Assembly: GCA_014730235.1 (NCBI GenBank)
Contig: WJIO01000385.1
Span: 1 to 9,552, forward strand
Source of the DNA: Candidatus Poribacteria bacterium
Lineage (GTDB): Bacteria; Poribacteria; DTPJ01; WJIO01
Reading direction: 5' to 3'
Length of the DNA: 9,552 nt
Part shown: positions 2,781-9,552 of the stretch, in pieces
How positions within the stretch are numbered: the first letter of the stretch is position 1
Layout: each line of letters opens with the position of its first letter
Notes under the pieces: generated by a model
What the model was told of the DNA's origin: nothing
The model's input: the letters and a program-made list of their open reading frames with translations, nothing else
The model's database searches: none
Program-made: the position numbers and the translations under genes

Positions 2781-2877
2781 ATTAATTTTGTTTTGTCAAA
2801 TTCTATAACAAGGAATTGTGGTGTTTTTTTCTAATCTTTGTTTATTCTCAAAAGTACGAAAGTATAAGAATATAAAA

Positions 2878-3903
2878 ATGAATAAAATAATAACAGCAAT
2901 TTTAACTTTAATAATATCAATATACCTCATATGCTGTGACAGGACACCTACATTGGAAGTAACATCCGAACCTTCCGGCGCGAAGGTTATTCTGGATGGT
3001 AAAGAAATAGGTATCACTCCTATCAAAATTCAGCCTTCACCAGGTGAACACCGGCTGATGGTGGCAAAACTAGGTTATTATGGAGCTGCGGCAAATATAC
3101 CTGCTAAAATTGACGATATTGACGAGTTAAAGTTAAACCTGAAAAGAATTTCAACTGAAGATATGATTAAAATTCCTGCTGGCCCTTTTCTTATGGGTAG
3201 CAGTGATGAAGAGATTACAAAAGTTGTTCGGGATCTGGGTGGTGGAGAACTTGGGCCTGATGTCGGTTGGTTTGCCGCTGAAAGACCACAGCACGAAGCC
3301 AGTGTAGAGGAATTTTACATAGATAAATACGAAGTAACCAACGAAAAATACAAAGCTTTTGTAGAAGCAGTAGGAAAACCCACACCCAGGGACTGGGAAG
3401 GTGGAACATATCCCGAAGGTAAAGGGGATCATCCTGTAGTATATGTAAGCTGGGAAGATGCAAATGAATATTGTCATTGGGTGGGTAAGCGACTCCCCAC
3501 AGAAACGGAATGGGAAAAAGCCGCCAGAGGAACAGATGCCAGAATATGGCCCTGGGGAAATACCTTTGACATAACAAAATGCAACGTGGAATCATGGGAA
3601 GGTTCAGGCTCAACACCTGTAGGCAGTTATCCTGATGGTGTAAGCCCATATGGGGTCTACGACATGGCCGGAAACGTGTGGGAATGGACTGATAGCTGGT
3701 ATGATGCCTATCCCGGTTCAGACCACACAACAACTGAGTTTGGTAAAAAAGTGCGGGTGCTTAGAGGCGGTTCTTGGTATCATTATAACAGCCTTGGGCC
3801 TATAGGTGCGCGATGTGCCTCCCGGGATCGGGCAGTTCCCCAATCCATTTCTTACGTCGCTGGTTTCAGATGTGCTATTGGTGTAGATGAACTGGCAGAA
3901 TAA
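2878..3903 (+). CDS. PEGA-domain plus FGE-like (SUMF1-type) exported protein, catalytic cysteines absent
   Basis: 341 residues from ATG 2878. The N-terminus is a hydrophobic export signal (MNKIITAILTLIISIYLICC) ending in C19-C20 followed by D-R. This suggests a lipoprotein, though the residues before the cysteine are not canonical. Residues about 25-90 form a PEGA domain (EPSGAKVILDGKEIGITPIK, then GEHRLMVAKLGY), a small beta domain common on surface or periplasmic proteins. Residues about 95-335 are an FGE/sulfatase-modifying-factor domain: MIKIPAGPFLMGS, FYIDKYEVTNEKY, KRLPTETEWEKAARG, WPWGN, YDMAGNVWEW, RVLRGGSW, GFRCA. Aligned by eye with human SUMF1 (GGSYMCHRSYC), the copper-binding catalytic cysteines correspond to H302 and G307, so it should not make formylglycine; a binding or structural role is more likely. 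An in-frame GTG at 2818 (or 2821, five bases after AGGAA) would add about 20 residues in front of the signal. ATG 2878 gives the better signal peptide but has a weak SD. First of a three-gene operon; 17 bases to the next gene. Confidence 0.85.
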   Translation: MNKIITAILTLIISIYLICCDRTPTLEVTSEPSGAKVILDGKEIGITPIKIQPSPGEHRLMVAKLGYYGAAANIPAKIDDIDELKLNLKRISTEDMIKIPAGPFLMGSSDEEITKVVRDLGGGELGPDVGWFAAERPQHEASVEEFYIDKYEVTNEKYKAFVEAVGKPTPRDWEGGTYPEGKGDHPVVYVSWEDANEYCHWVGKRLPTETEWEKAARGTDARIWPWGNTFDITKCNVESWEGSGSTPVGSYPDGVSPYGVYDMAGNVWEWTDSWYDAYPGSDHTTTEFGKKVRVLRGGSWYHYNSLGPIGARCASRDRAVPQSISYVAGFRCAIGVDELAE

Positions 3904-3907
3904 ATTG

Positions 3908-3915
3908 AAAAGGGG
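3908..3915 (+). promoter_or_regulatory. Ribosome binding site for the 3921 gene
   Basis: AAAAGGGG ends five bases before ATG 3921, within the 17-base gap after the preceding stop. It fixes the start of the PD40 lipoprotein. It is embedded in AAATTGAAAAGGGG, which is identical to the leader of the gene at 776. Confidence 0.7.
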
Positions 3916-3920
3916 TACCA

Positions 3921-4853
3921 ATGAGGCAGGGATTTCTGTTTTGTATAGCATTATTCTGTATTTTCATTGTAATTACATCATCAGGATGCGAGGAAAAGCC
4001 TTCGATTAAGCTGCCGATTGGTTATTTTCCATCTTCAAAGTCATTACTTAATATTGGTTCAACTGCCCACAGCCCATCTGTTGGTGGCGACAAGATAACA
4101 TTTTCTGCATATGTTGATGACAATAATGAAATATTCGTATCCAATATAGATGGCTCAAGCATACAAAGACTTACCTTCAATGATACCAGCGACTACAGTC
4201 CGGCCATTTCACCGGATGGCACAAAGGTCGTGTATATATCCTTTATACGCTACGGCAACAGCAACGACGAAGTTTTTGTAATGGATATTGACGGGCGTAA
4301 CCAGATAAGACTAACAGAAAACACCATATCCGATGGTAGCCCGGAATTTTCCCCTGATGGTAACAGCATAGTGTTCCAGAGTACCCTCAATAACACCGGT
4401 GAAATATTTGTTATGGACGTTAAAAGCCGGCAGGAAAAGCGGCTGACAACTTCAGATGGCGATAGCTGCTGTGCATCCTTTTCCCCTGACGGTAAGCAGA
4501 TCGTTTATTCTATATTTTTAGCATCTCCTATGGGGATCAAAAGCGATATATACCTGATGGACACAGATGGAAAAAATCAAAAACAGCTAACAGACAACGA
4601 ATTTATGAACTCAAACCCATCCTTTTCCCCCGATGGGAAATTTATAGTATTTGACACCAACCGGGACGGCAACAGCGAAATATATATCATGAAAACCGAT
4701 GGAAGCCAGCAAACCCGACTGACCAAAAACAGCTATATTGATATGGAACCCGTATTTATGCCGGATAATCGCAGGATAGTTTTCATTGCCAACAGGAGTA
4801 TTGATGAGCATTTGGGGGTTTATGTTATGGATCTGCTGGAAACCTCCCGATAA
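3921..4853 (+). CDS. PD40 (TolB-like) beta-propeller lipoprotein
   Basis: 310 residues. Residues 1-23 are a lipoprotein signal peptide: a hydrophobic core, then ITSSGC with the acylated cysteine at C23, followed by E-E. The rest is a WD40-like/PD40 propeller. A first blade lies at about 51-80 (SPSVGGDKITFSAY, then NEIFVSNIDGSS). It is followed by PD40 repeats with ISPDGTKVVY (97-106), FSPDGNSIVF (143-152), FSPDGKQIVYS (187-197), FSPDGKFIVF (235-244) and a degenerate MPDNRRIVF (280-288), so about six blades. Repeats close with the usual EIFVMDVKS / IYLMDTDGK / EIYIMKTDGS strand and an RLT step, as in the TolB C-terminal domain. It is shorter than true TolB (about 430 residues) and lacks the TolB N-terminal domain, and no pal/tolQRA genes are nearby, so it is not TolB. 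A membrane-tethered binding or scaffold protein in the periplasm or outer membrane is the likely role; the ligand is unknown. Its last codons form half of a hairpin with the next gene's SD. Confidence 0.85.
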   Translation: MRQGFLFCIALFCIFIVITSSGCEEKPSIKLPIGYFPSSKSLLNIGSTAHSPSVGGDKITFSAYVDDNNEIFVSNIDGSSIQRLTFNDTSDYSPAISPDGTKVVYISFIRYGNSNDEVFVMDIDGRNQIRLTENTISDGSPEFSPDGNSIVFQSTLNNTGEIFVMDVKSRQEKRLTTSDGDSCCASFSPDGKQIVYSIFLASPMGIKSDIYLMDTDGKNQKQLTDNEFMNSNPSFSPDGKFIVFDTNRDGNSEIYIMKTDGSQQTRLTKNSYIDMEPVFMPDNRRIVFIANRSIDEHLGVYVMDLLETSR

Positions 4854-5338: not shown

Positions 5339-6415
5339 TTATGCTTTTTTTATGTATTCATCCAGCTTCCCCTCGTCCAATTCCAACCCTAACCCTGGCT
5401 TTTGTGGAACATAAATATGACCATCCTCAAACACCAGAGGTACTTTGAATAATTCATCCAACCTTGAATCCTGCCCGGTGTATTCCTGCGGTCTGTTGGC
5501 ATTGACTATTGATGCGCAGATGTGCAGATTTGCGGCTGTGCCGATTGTTGGCTGAGTCTGGTGGGGCAGGAAATGCTTGTTGTATGTAGAGCCTAAAACG
5601 GCGATCTTCACCATTTCGCTGATCCCGGCGCATTTTACCACGTCAGGCTGGATAATATCAACCTTTGCCTGCTGGATCAAATCCCGGAACTGCCACCGGG
5701 TGTATTCGTGCTCACCGGCTGATACTGGAACATCCAGAGCGTCGGCTACTTCTGCAATGCCGGGGTAGTCATACTGGGCGACGGGTTCTTCGTAGTGGTA
5801 TATACCCATATCCTCAAATTTACGACCCTGGAGTATGGCTGTGCTGACTGAATATCCGTTGTTGGCGTCAAAGCTCAGGGGAATTTCATCACCCAGAAGG
5901 GATCTGACCTGACGGAACATCTCCATATCTTTTGCCGGGTTTATATCCTGTCGATTGGCTCTCCAGTCCATGCGGATTTTAATGGCTTTGAAACCCTTAT
6001 CCAGATAGCTTTCAACCCTCTTGACCATCTGTTCCGGCGTCATACCTGCACCGCCGCCGATGCTGGCATACATCATTATCTTTTCCCGGTAGCATCCACC
6101 CAACAAGGTATGGATAGGTAACCCGGCAACCTTGCCAAGTATGTCCCACAGGGCAATGTCTACCCCTGCGATGGATTCGGGCTGAGTTCCCTGAACGCCT
6201 AATTTGTAGGTACTAAAGGTCATTTTGTTCCAGAGCTTTCCGATTTCCAGGGGATTTTCCCCTACTATCAGAGGCTTAAGAGCTGTATTAACGAAATGGG
6301 CGTTGACTTTGGGGTTCATGGGACTGCATTCACCTATTCCCATAACGCCTTCATCGGTATAAACCCTCACAATAGTTGGTCTTATCGGTACTGCTTTGAC
6401 ATCAGTTATTTTCAT
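5339..6415 (-). CDS. Mandelate racemase/muconate lactonizing enzyme family, probable acid-sugar dehydratase
   Basis: 358 residues of the enolase superfamily, which abstract a proton alpha to a carboxylate at a Mg2+ site. The N-terminal capping domain includes MKITDVKAVPIRP and DEGVMGIGE; the barrel follows. Visible residues: KIR (K146, R148) in the second-strand KxK position; metal ligands D183 (SFDANNGY), E209/E210 (YEEP) and E235 (GEHEYTRWQF); the Asp-His dyad D258 (IIQPDVVKCAG) and H285 (FLPHQTQP); and E311 (QEYTG). The full ligand set and dyad indicate an active enzyme. Replacement of the second Lys of KxK by Arg argues against a racemase and fits the dehydratase branch. The GEHEYTRW segment recalls rhamnonate/galactonate-type dehydratases, but the substrate cannot be read from sequence. 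It is cytoplasmic and the last gene of the minus-strand operon, 12 bases after the NagB/PIG-L gene, with GAGG a few bases before its ATG. A symbol is not warranted. Confidence 0.88.
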   Translation of the reverse strand: MKITDVKAVPIRPTIVRVYTDEGVMGIGECSPMNPKVNAHFVNTALKPLIVGENPLEIGKLWNKMTFSTYKLGVQGTQPESIAGVDIALWDILGKVAGLPIHTLLGGCYREKIMMYASIGGGAGMTPEQMVKRVESYLDKGFKAIKIRMDWRANRQDINPAKDMEMFRQVRSLLGDEIPLSFDANNGYSVSTAILQGRKFEDMGIYHYEEPVAQYDYPGIAEVADALDVPVSAGEHEYTRWQFRDLIQQAKVDIIQPDVVKCAGISEMVKIAVLGSTYNKHFLPHQTQPTIGTAANLHICASIVNANRPQEYTGQDSRLDELFKVPLVFEDGHIYVPQKPGLGLELDEGKLDEYIKKA

Positions 6416-6427
6416 TACATACCTCGT

Positions 6428-8782
6428 TTATATATTTTCCGTAGTTCTTCTCAGCTCCCGGGCATGGGAGTAAAATTCTTTCAAACCCATACTGCGCAAA
6501 AATACAAACCCCCGGGTAGCCCGGATTAACGGCGTTTCGTGTTCGTTGAAGAATTGACGACCCAGGCATATTTTTAATTTCTGATACTGATCCACCTGTA
6601 TCTCCTGAGACAAGATAGAGAAGGGGCCATCGCATTCGTGACTTGGGAAAGATGCCTCTTTCTGTGAACCAAAGGCATTGAGAAAGGCGTTTTGCAGGAC
6701 TGCAAACATATTCAGGGAAACCGGAACATAGATATTGGCTTCTGAGGGATGAAAGCGATACCATACGTTTCTATAACCCCATATCTCAATATCCGAACGC
6801 CCAGTCTCCTCCTCGTAGCTTCTCAGGGCTTCGGAAACAGCCTGTAATACCTTATAATGGGTATCGGGCCCACTGGCTTCGGGATCAAGGGCTACAGTGA
6901 CAACATGGGGGTTGTATTCCTTCAGCAGCTTAAGCACCGGCGGAATATCCCTTTCCGGCTTGGGTTCTTCGGTAAAAATTTCACCCTTATAGAATCCCAG
7001 ACGCAGATGTTTTACCGATTGGCTGTCAAATCCCAGATAACCCCACAGGCAATCAGCCTCCCATTCCCTTATCATGCCTTTTAGTTGTTGAATATAAGGC
7101 AGGTCTTTTCTGCCGGGGTATTGAGTTTCGAAATAGTTAATCAGTTCAACGATTCGGTGTTTGAGGTTATCCACATCCTCTTCCTCAAAAATCTCCATCA
7201 TGTTCCTGAGTAATCGTCGGGCTTCACCCTCGTCTTTCATTAAAGTGTTGTTGGCTGCCACGCCGTCAAGATACTGCCATAAGTCCCGATTTTGTCCGTT
7301 GACATTGGTAGGTCTGAAGTATTCCTCATCTATAAGTTCATTGAAAGCCTTAGTGTCCAGAAAATATTGAAGCTTTTTCACCAGAGATAAGGCATATTTA
7401 TTTGTCACAGATGTAAAACCCGACGTCATATAGGCGAATATGTGGGTATTAGAGGCATCCCGGATATTTCGCACAGCATAGGGAAGGTATCCCAGCATAA
7501 TATCATCATGGTGCGGGGCGGTATGCAGAAAAACCGTTTCACTCCGGGCTTTGCTTCCGGCCCTGAGCTTTTGCATAAGGCTGTTTTCAACTTCTGATAC
7601 CAGGTATGGAAGGCCTTTATCGGGTTTATCCAGCAATATGGAACCAAAACAGTCTTCGATCATATCAGCCTGCTGGAGTTCTGTCACCCGCTTTTTTTGC
7701 TTCAGAGCAATATCAACTATTATCTTTTCAATCTTTTCATCAGAAAAATCATCCTGAACGGAAAGGCTTTGATACTGGCGTTCTTCAAGCTTCTTTGCCG
7801 CCCCCTGGGTTATATAAAAACGGGCGTTGGTAAGCTGATGCAATGCTGTGGCCGGATATCGGATGTGGGGTTTCTTTTGTATGGCATCATGCACGACTTT
7901 GGCCTTGGCTTCACCGGCGGCTATGATTATGGCTGTGCAGTCAGGATTATAGGTTATGGTGGATATTCCAATGGTTATAACCAGCCGCTTTTGAGCGACC
8001 TCTATGCCACCAAGGTCCGTTGCTGCTGCTGCCTGGGTTTCATAATTCATCTGGGTCAGCCGCGTTGTGGAATTGTGGTCTGAGCCGGTAACGTTAAAGG
8101 CTATATGGCCATCAGGCCCAATACCACCCAGAAAGAAGCCGATCCCACCAAGCTTACGGATTTGCTGTTCGTAATCGTAACACCACTGATCAATGGCCTG
8201 TAGAGCAGTCTTCTGTATCTTTTCCTGATCGGTGTGGGCCTGGTTATATCTGAGAAGAATATCAACTTCTGAATCAGGCCATACCTCGTCCAGGTCTTTT
8301 CCCTCGGGTAAACCTATCTTTGAGCAATCTATAAGCAGGGCTTTGTCCGGATCAAGACCAAAACCTTCTATGTAGAACTTATTTACATAATAATAAAAGC
8401 TATTGTGCTGTGTAGGTGGTATGGGATAAAACTCATCGATCTGCACGAAGTGCAGGCTTTTCATATCCGGCTTTATGGTCGGATCAAGACCGTTTTGCTC
8501 CATATCAGCCCGCGTTTCATCATTATCCCAGTTTTTCAGGTAATATGTAACCCATTTGATAAAGTATTCCGGGGTTTTACCTGTGGGAAGGGATATAACC
8601 CCTCCCGGATTATACTGAACCCACTCTAAAAGCTTCAGGGCTGTCAGCTTTCCTAATGCCGGAAAATTATCCACGATTATAGAACCCATCTTCTCCATTG
8701 GCGGATAAATAAGTTCCTGATCGCTTTTTTCCAGGATGTTCCGCTCTACTCTTGATTCAGACCTGTTTGCTTCGTCATTCAT
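6428..8782 (-). CDS. Glucosamine-6-phosphate deaminase-like / PIG-L (LmbE) deacetylase fusion protein
   Basis: 784 residues, cytoplasmic. Residues about 30-335 are NagB-like: ISLPTGKTPEYF (63-74), QIDEFYPI (114-121, D116 matching E. coli D72), and FLGGIGPDGHIAFN (217-230) with D224 and H226 matching D141 and H143. The residue matching catalytic E148 is V231 (FNVTGSD in place of FNEP). NagB converts glucosamine-6-phosphate to fructose-6-phosphate plus ammonia. Residues about 415-650 are a PIG-L/LmbE Zn-dependent de-N-acetylase: TAPHHDDIMLGY (421-432), MTSG (452-455), REWEADCLWGYLGF (572-585) and GPDTHYKVLQAV (638-649), with H424, D427 and H642 as likely Zn ligands and D426 as the base. About 100 extra, acidic helical residues (roughly 470-570) separate the first and later PIG-L motifs. 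A C-terminal region (650-784) has no recognised domain. NagB-LmbE fusions occur in Bacteroidetes-type bacteria; this one is longer and divergent. SD GAGAGGG lies ten bases before the ATG. Activity of the first half is uncertain. Confidence 0.85.
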   Translation of the reverse strand: MNDEANRSESRVERNILEKSDQELIYPPMEKMGSIIVDNFPALGKLTALKLLEWVQYNPGGVISLPTGKTPEYFIKWVTYYLKNWDNDETRADMEQNGLDPTIKPDMKSLHFVQIDEFYPIPPTQHNSFYYYVNKFYIEGFGLDPDKALLIDCSKIGLPEGKDLDEVWPDSEVDILLRYNQAHTDQEKIQKTALQAIDQWCYDYEQQIRKLGGIGFFLGGIGPDGHIAFNVTGSDHNSTTRLTQMNYETQAAAATDLGGIEVAQKRLVITIGISTITYNPDCTAIIIAAGEAKAKVVHDAIQKKPHIRYPATALHQLTNARFYITQGAAKKLEERQYQSLSVQDDFSDEKIEKIIVDIALKQKKRVTELQQADMIEDCFGSILLDKPDKGLPYLVSEVENSLMQKLRAGSKARSETVFLHTAPHHDDIMLGYLPYAVRNIRDASNTHIFAYMTSGFTSVTNKYALSLVKKLQYFLDTKAFNELIDEEYFRPTNVNGQNRDLWQYLDGVAANNTLMKDEGEARRLLRNMMEIFEEEDVDNLKHRIVELINYFETQYPGRKDLPYIQQLKGMIREWEADCLWGYLGFDSQSVKHLRLGFYKGEIFTEEPKPERDIPPVLKLLKEYNPHVVTVALDPEASGPDTHYKVLQAVSEALRSYEEETGRSDIEIWGYRNVWYRFHPSEANIYVPVSLNMFAVLQNAFLNAFGSQKEASFPSHECDGPFSILSQEIQVDQYQKLKICLGRQFFNEHETPLIRATRGFVFLRSMGLKEFYSHARELRRTTENI

Positions 8783-8805: not shown

Positions 8806-9552
8806 TTATTTTTGTTTAATATCAACACTTTTATCAAGAATTATCGCCAGCTTGTTAATATAATACAAATCAGCCTGACAGAAAGGTATATCAAGTTTTT
8901 CCACAAGTTCTTCCTGACCGGCTTTTGTTAGCCAGGCCATTGCTCTAAAAGCGTCAATTGCCAAATCAGGTGGATCAATAAAATTTTCACCGTAGTGGAG
9001 TTGACGTTCTTCGCCCATAAGATGCCATGTTGGGCATAGAGTTTCCATCCATTTCCATATTTTTTCCACTTCTGTATTTTGTTGTTTTTTTATTATATTT
9101 GCCACTTCAGGTGTCAGGTTATGAAACAACCCAAGTTTTGATTTGTGATGACCTACCTTGAGAAAAAGAAAATCACCTTTACCTAAAAAGGAATCCCATT
9201 GGGCGATATTTTCAAAAATCGGCTTTTGTATATTGTTGGCGCTTTTTCGCCACCAGGATAAAAGAGGTGTAATTGCATGGTTTACGGCCATTTCAGCCTG
9301 TTGAGAAGTCTCCTCATCATCCATTTTATAAGACATCTCTCGAAAAGCTATCAATGAAGCAAGATACTGATTGGCCTCAATCTTGCCGTTTTCTATTCCA
9401 GTCAAAAGGCCCGTCTGGATAAAATCAGTGAAATTCTTCTTTATATATGGCCAGGAATCTGCAATTTTATTCCACTCTCCACATCTTTGAGCATAAAGCC
9501 ATATTGGATAAGTATTTACAAAGGGATGGGTTTTTTTGTAATTATGATGTCG
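8806..9552 (-). CDS. All-helical, (alpha/alpha)6 glycosidase-like protein, C-terminal fragment (5' end outside window)
   Basis: The minus-strand frame is open from the window edge to TAA 8808-8806, giving 248 residues. No ATG occurs before the MSYKMDDEE region, so the start lies beyond 9552; a TTG at 9405-9403 is an internal codon, not a start. The fragment begins RHHNYKKTHPFVNTYPIW and continues LYAQRCGEWNKIADSWPYIK, EANQYLASLIAFREMSYKM, a WW near LSWWRKSANN, TLCPTWHLMG, and PPDLAIDAFRAMAWLTKAG. Long amphipathic helices, many Trp and Tyr, and the repeated pattern of a helix pair then a short loop fit the C-terminal half of a six-hairpin (alpha/alpha)6 barrel, as in GH78-, GH95- or lyase-like enzymes. 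I recognise no specific family and no catalytic residue. It is followed after 23 bases by the NagB/PIG-L gene, so a role in sugar or oligosaccharide processing is plausible from context only. Confidence 0.6.
   Translation of the reverse strand, partial: RHHNYKKTHPFVNTYPIWLYAQRCGEWNKIADSWPYIKKNFTDFIQTGLLTGIENGKIEANQYLASLIAFREMSYKMDDEETSQQAEMAVNHAITPLLSWWRKSANNIQKPIFENIAQWDSFLGKGDFLFLKVGHHKSKLGLFHNLTPEVANIIKKQQNTEVEKIWKWMETLCPTWHLMGEERQLHYGENFIDPPDLAIDAFRAMAWLTKAGQEELVEKLDIPFCQADLYYINKLAIILDKSVDIKQK

Follow-up and report, generated by a model that had tools for sequence, protein, structure and literature searches.

A divergent family of NagB/PIG-L fusion proteins with a replaced NagB Glu148 and a probable role in the use of chitin-derived sugars

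The closest catalogued counterparts of the protein analysed here are the NagB-LmbE fusions of Bacteroidota (NCBIfam NF002557, PRK02122). In our alignments, these fusions retained Glu at the site of E. coli NagB Glu148 (25/25) and the HGTH motif of the LmbE half (as DPHGTH), and had exchanged Asp141 of the NagB Asp-His-Glu triad for Thr, Ser or Asn (loci L148-L172). Glu148 of E. coli NagB touches His143 when the enzyme is in the R state and Lys160 when it is in the T state (PMC4008608); the residue is also counted among those of the allosteric site (PMC4281351). The metal motif of LmbE enzymes is HXD1D2 plus a His, the metal ligands of characterised members are spaced 97-148 residues apart, and MshB without His144 is left with at most 1% of its activity, according to a review (PMC4101496). 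Searching the literature available to us for NagB with LmbE or PIG-L, we found no paper on such fusions; the NagB predicted in the chitin locus of F. johnsoniae could not be expressed (PMC5127042).

We analysed a 9,552-nucleotide stretch of a Candidatus Poribacteria genome (contig WJIO01000385.1; hereafter the window), in which the original prediction had correctly called an ORF of 784 amino acids with an ATG start, its coordinates including the stop codon (Table 1). That the protein is a NagB/PIG-L fusion of divergent sequence whose NagB site is non-standard was borne out by folds, profiles and the alignment of V231, and profile, alignment and structure all placed NagB ahead of LmbE in one polypeptide. 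The protein scored 87.5 bits against the curated NCBIfam nagB model (cut-off 236.9) and 212.6 bits against NF002557 (cut-off 384). In Pfam, Glucosamine_iso alone was matched, below threshold (22 vs 27 bits), and no PIG-L match was found at E 0.1. Since these curated cut-offs were missed and the Glu148 feature was lacking, the fusion is not filed as NagB or as NF002557 proper. An AlphaFold2 model (mean pLDDT 89.4, pTM 0.87, with block pLDDT of 71-79 over about residues 221-260) matched the NagB fold of B. subtilis 2bkv (Z 28.9, rmsd 1.9, 242 residues) and E. coli 1dea (Z 28.8), followed by an LmbE Rossmann-like fold matching BshB 6p2t over residues 415-766 (Z 18.7, 207 residues) and diacetylchitobiose deacetylase 8bgo over residues 407-772 (Z 17.9).

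Table 1. Features of the fusion protein and its adjoining genes in the window
Feature	Position	Strand	Evidence or remark
NagB/PIG-L fusion protein P0001	6428..8782	-	ORF, 784 aa; full-length homologues, 50-74% identity, 80 loci; AF2 model
NagB-fold half, residues 31-338	7769..8692	-	NCBIfam nagB 87 bits, NF002557 213 bits; structural match
PIG-L/LmbE-fold half including C-terminal tail, residues 414-772	6467..7543	-	structural match to BshB and diacetylchitobiose deacetylase
K69, phosphate loop SLPTGKTPE	8576..8578	-	K 97%, R 2% (79 homologues)
D116, equivalent of E. coli NagB D72	8435..8437	-	D in 77/79
D224-G225-H226, equivalents of E. coli D141-G142-H143	8105..8113	-	invariant, 79/79
V231, at the E. 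coli NagB E148 site	8090..8092	-	V66/I12/T1 of 79 homologues
K293, equivalent of E. coli NagB K208	7904..7906	-	K 97%
HHDD 424-427, predicted first metal ligand, general base D426 and second metal ligand	7502..7513	-	76/76 homologues checked; motif of PMC4101496
PIG-L-half helical insert, residues 461-581	7040..7402	-	model helices; family metal-ligand spacing
DPEASGPDTH 633-642, predicted third metal ligand H642	6857..6886	-	usual second His missing (E635 or P639)
Upstream gene, cut by contig end, 247 aa readable	8806..9552	-	23-bp gap to fusion
Downstream enolase-superfamily sugar-acid dehydratase-like gene	5339..6415	-	12-bp gap; PF13378/PF02746

A scan of genome contigs recovered 80 loci with essentially full-length relatives at 50-74% identity, mostly in Calditrichota, KSB1, Ignavibacteria/Melioribacteraceae, Marinimicrobia, WOR-3 and TA06, among others, and several genomes carried two copies. 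A plasmid search returned only Bacteroidota fusions at 22-26% identity. In a quick tree the family formed one clade separated from all NagBs by a very long branch, which makes its placement relative to other NagBs unsure.

The catalytic residues named at the outset, D116, D224 and H226, together with V231, were confirmed at their positions. V231 aligned with the Glu of FNEPGS in the solved NagBs 3hn6, 1ne7 and 2bkv and with E. coli Glu148; the E. coli numbering follows a sequence checked at its key positions only, and the same Glu appears in the PDB alignments. Position 231 was Val in 66, Ile in 12 and Thr in one of 79 full-length homologues and never Glu, and the same three residues occupied it in 20 further regions, some of them second copies or from the same genomes. 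Glu stood at this site in 62/62 canonical NagBs, as it did in the Bacteroidota fusions. The equivalents of E. coli D72, D141, H143 and K208 (D116, D224, H226 and K293) were conserved at 97-100% in the fusion family. Compared with canonical NagB (E. coli 1dea, B. subtilis 2bkv), the fusion thus shares the fold and these four residues and differs in the replacement of Glu148 by Val or Ile, of the phosphate-loop Ser/Gly by Lys and of Asn70 by Gln, besides forming a separate long-branch clade. The phosphate loop SLPTGKTPE replaces GLxTGSTP, and at the site of K69 (Lys in 97% and Arg in 2% of the 79 homologues) canonical NagBs have Ser, Gly or Thr, with Ser in 98% of 62. QIDEF replaces NLDEY, T239 replaces R156 while R158 is kept, D256 belongs to the fusion pattern, and NSF and GPDGHIxFN[VI]xGSD are likewise fixed in the family. 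On alignment evidence, then, the clade has a fixed active-site pattern of its own.

The PIG-L half had been predicted to keep all of its metal motifs, and this held for the ligands, as H424, D426 and D427 of HHDD and H642 of PDTH, together forming the HXD1D2 plus His motif, were invariant in the family. It did not hold for the second His of HxxH, since the position three residues ahead of the third ligand is taken by P639, or by E635 if a four-residue gap is allowed, and the HGTH of NF002557 has become PDTH. The large insert also proposed is real and fixed in the family, with 214-216 residues from the Asp ligand to the His ligand (76 homologues) against mostly 153-162 in NF002557 fusions, but part of it is already present in the latter. 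The claim that 130 unassigned residues follow was not upheld; the model can be aligned as far as residues 766-772 with BshB and diacetylchitobiose deacetylase, NF002557 proteins have the same tail, and the structural match over residues 414-772 makes the C-terminal tail part of the LmbE fold. The half therefore resembles BshB and N,N'-diacetylchitobiose deacetylase in fold and in its HXDD plus His motif, and departs from them in its 215-residue spacing and missing HxxH His.

With the NF002557 fusions, the window family has in common the domain order, the linker, a KGxIRRxE-like helix, (S/T)-D in the E. coli R172-F173 region, the PIG-L C-terminal tail and part of the insert. It is unlike them in keeping Asp141, in having lost Glu148, in HHDD and PDTH and in its longer insert. 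Of the Asp-His-Glu triad, the NF002557 fusions have thus altered Asp141 and the present family Glu148.

Gene neighbourhoods of the relatives point to ordinary GlcNAc/chitin catabolism. The L082 operon runs ROK repressor, ROK kinase, TonB receptor, T9SS protein, fusion, MFS transporter, GH94 and GH18 chitinase, the GH94 protein scoring 1186 bits to chitobiose phosphorylase 1v7v vs 507 to cellobiose phosphorylase. L040 has T9SS protein, MFS, GH94 and fusion; L081 has ROK repressor, ROK kinase, fusion and GH20, an order repeated at L090 as judged by clustering; L059 reads NagP-like transporter (score 509 bits, cut-off 625), fusion, ROK; and at L054 the fusion is accompanied by ROK, ROK repressor, a protein called GH18-like on its sequence alone and an SSS symporter. 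Counted by eye from tables and neighbour lists, 9 of 52 fusion genomes had a ROK gene within about 8 kb of the fusion, compared to 0.83 expected (P about 3e-7). At most of the 80 loci, a recognised GlcNAc gene adjoining the fusion was absent. A canonical NagB adjoins it at several loci (L075, L057).

Two other genes recurred. A 139-aa UPF0047 (YjbQ-type) gene lies just downstream of the fusion at ten loci, mostly in Calditrichota (L037, L038, L044, L045, L048, L052, L060, L061, L088 and L093), and a DUF4954/DUF6819-type protein recurs beside the fusion or a canonical NagB (L035 2-1300, L058 12538-14535, L057 6698-8680 and L037 10046-12031).

The complement of NagA and NagB in the fusion genomes was also surveyed. 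First, among 52 genomes of unstated completeness assembled from metagenomes, eight, including those of L082 and L040, had neither another NagB (>26 bits) nor NagA (>31 bits) detected, 14 had a canonical NagB without NagA and 18 had both. The absence of any other detected NagB or NagA in some genomes speaks for both activities having been kept despite the missing Glu. Second, a search of the L082 genome for a two-SIS NagB-II returned none, the SIS proteins found including GlmS and single-SIS proteins. Third, NagA was missing in 16 of 41 NagB-bearing genomes with the fusion (any NagA-like match >130 bits counted as present, 25/41) vs 0 of 67 without it, the latter all from the window's phylum with NagA matches of E below 1e-54 (Fisher P 2e-8); as the compared genomes come from different phyla and are non-independent, phylogeny confounds this comparison, which is supportive only. 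Lastly, the window genome itself encodes complete NagA and NagB proteins (302 and 328 bits, respectively), so the fusion there is not needed for the basic pathway and is an addition to it; a role as sole GlcNAc-6-phosphate route in this organism was rejected on these grounds.

In the window, the upstream gene, the fusion and the dehydratase-like gene probably form one operon. The upstream gene had no Pfam, PDB or other family match, and the nearest NCBIfam equivalog models for the dehydratase-like gene all scored below their cut-offs; neither neighbour is a GlcNAc gene. An operon with the downstream dehydratase conserved across the family was discarded, as this gene did not recur in the other 81 loci examined. 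Further away, the plus strand encodes a 567-aa protein (776-2479) for which Pfam and NCBIfam gave no match and the PDB none that was meaningful, and, at 2818-4853, a protein with PEGA and FGE-sulfatase domains and, after it, a TolB-like beta-propeller protein.

Based on the folds, the kept catalytic residues, the GlcNAc/chitin neighbours and the genomes without other detected NagB or NagA, we put at slightly better than even the chance that the protein is a GlcNAc-6-phosphate deacetylase/GlcN-6-phosphate deaminase of a distinct NagB/PIG-L clade, with both sites re-tuned. Deacetylation of GlcNAc-6-phosphate, or of a closely related compound, would fall to the metal-dependent PIG-L half at the C terminus, and the NagB half at the N terminus would turn GlcN-6-phosphate into fructose-6-phosphate and ammonia, the intermediate perhaps being channelled within the fusion. 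D116 would serve as the C1/C2 base, an Asp224-His226 dyad, if sufficient, would open the ring in place of the Asp-His-Glu triad, and phosphate would be bound by K69 of the phosphate loop and by K293. Counting against this reading are the invariance of Glu148 in all other NagBs examined, the missing HxxH His, in view of the low activity of MshB without His144, the NagA and NagB of the window genome, its lack of GlcNAc genes beside the fusion and the majority of loci at which such genes do not adjoin it either, and it is quite possible that the amino-sugar substrate in this genome differs. We suggest more tentatively that this is a new type of enzyme, with NagB Glu148 and the PIG-L HxxH His both replaced by fixed alternatives, which would serve chitin-degrading bacteria of little-known phyla either with a changed apparatus for GlcNAc-6-phosphate deacetylation and deamination or with activity on a different amino-sugar phosphate.

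A rival explanation, unlikely but deserving of weight, is that the fusion acts on another phosphorylated or N-acylated amino sugar (of GalNAc/ManNAc type, chitobiose-derived or oxidised), which V231, K69, Q114 and the missing PIG-L His would reflect. The clade-fixed residues in both sites, the very long branch to all NagBs, the ordinary NagA and NagB in the window genome, the sugar-acid dehydratase-like gene 12 bp downstream and the genomes with two fusion copies are consistent with such a substrate, whereas the GlcNAc/chitobiose genes adjoining related loci, the several genomes without another detected GlcNAc-6-phosphate route and the failure of the dehydratase to recur argue against it.

Somewhat less probable still is that the PIG-L half alone is an active deacetylase, the NagB half being a regulatory or scaffold domain that binds GlcNAc-6-phosphate or GlcN-6-phosphate while a separate NagB deaminates. 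Since E. coli Glu148 serves both the catalytic site and allosteric switching (PMC4008608, PMC4281351), losing it may have consequences for regulation in addition to catalysis, and the 14 fusion genomes with canonical NagB and without NagA, along with the loci where the two adjoin, fit this division of labour; the retention of D116, D224, H226 and K293 across the family and the eight genomes with no other detected NagB do not. The same conservation of catalytic Asp, Asp, His and Lys throughout the family speaks against the suggestion that the NagB half is a mere sugar-phosphate sensor.

The lactonase-like chemistry also raised in the original prediction, with the N-terminal half acting as a 6-phosphogluconolactonase (6PGL), fared worse and is very improbable. 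The superfamily fold is shared (Z 21.7 to 6PGL 3ico) and 6PGLs are not known to have a Glu at the position equivalent to Glu148, but NagB was closer both by structure (Z 28.9) and by profile (87 bits for nagB vs 15 for the NCBIfam pgl model). 6PGL carries the Arg of a DER motif, a site occupied by F118 in the fusion (98% of the family), and the neighbours of the homologues are amino-sugar genes.

That the gene is decaying or non-functional is scarcely credible, for although two of the residues that catalysis normally requires have been lost, about 780 amino acids are intact at 50-74% identity across many phyla, dN against the L033 relative was about 0.21 with saturated dS, and both halves contain many invariant columns; decay, assembly error and chance were thus set aside given the family-wide fixation of Val, Ile or Thr and the full-length conservation.

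These proteins form a large unstudied fusion family of little-known bacteria in which a normally fixed catalytic residue has been swapped, and which probably helps in the use of chitin-derived sugars. If the deacetylase/deaminase reading is true, the Asp-His-Glu triad of NagB is not required, and the fusion would fill a gap in chitin use, at the deacetylase/deaminase step, in several phyla about which little is known. Annotation pipelines are likely to name such fusions plain glucosamine-6-phosphate deaminase, hiding two altered active sites.
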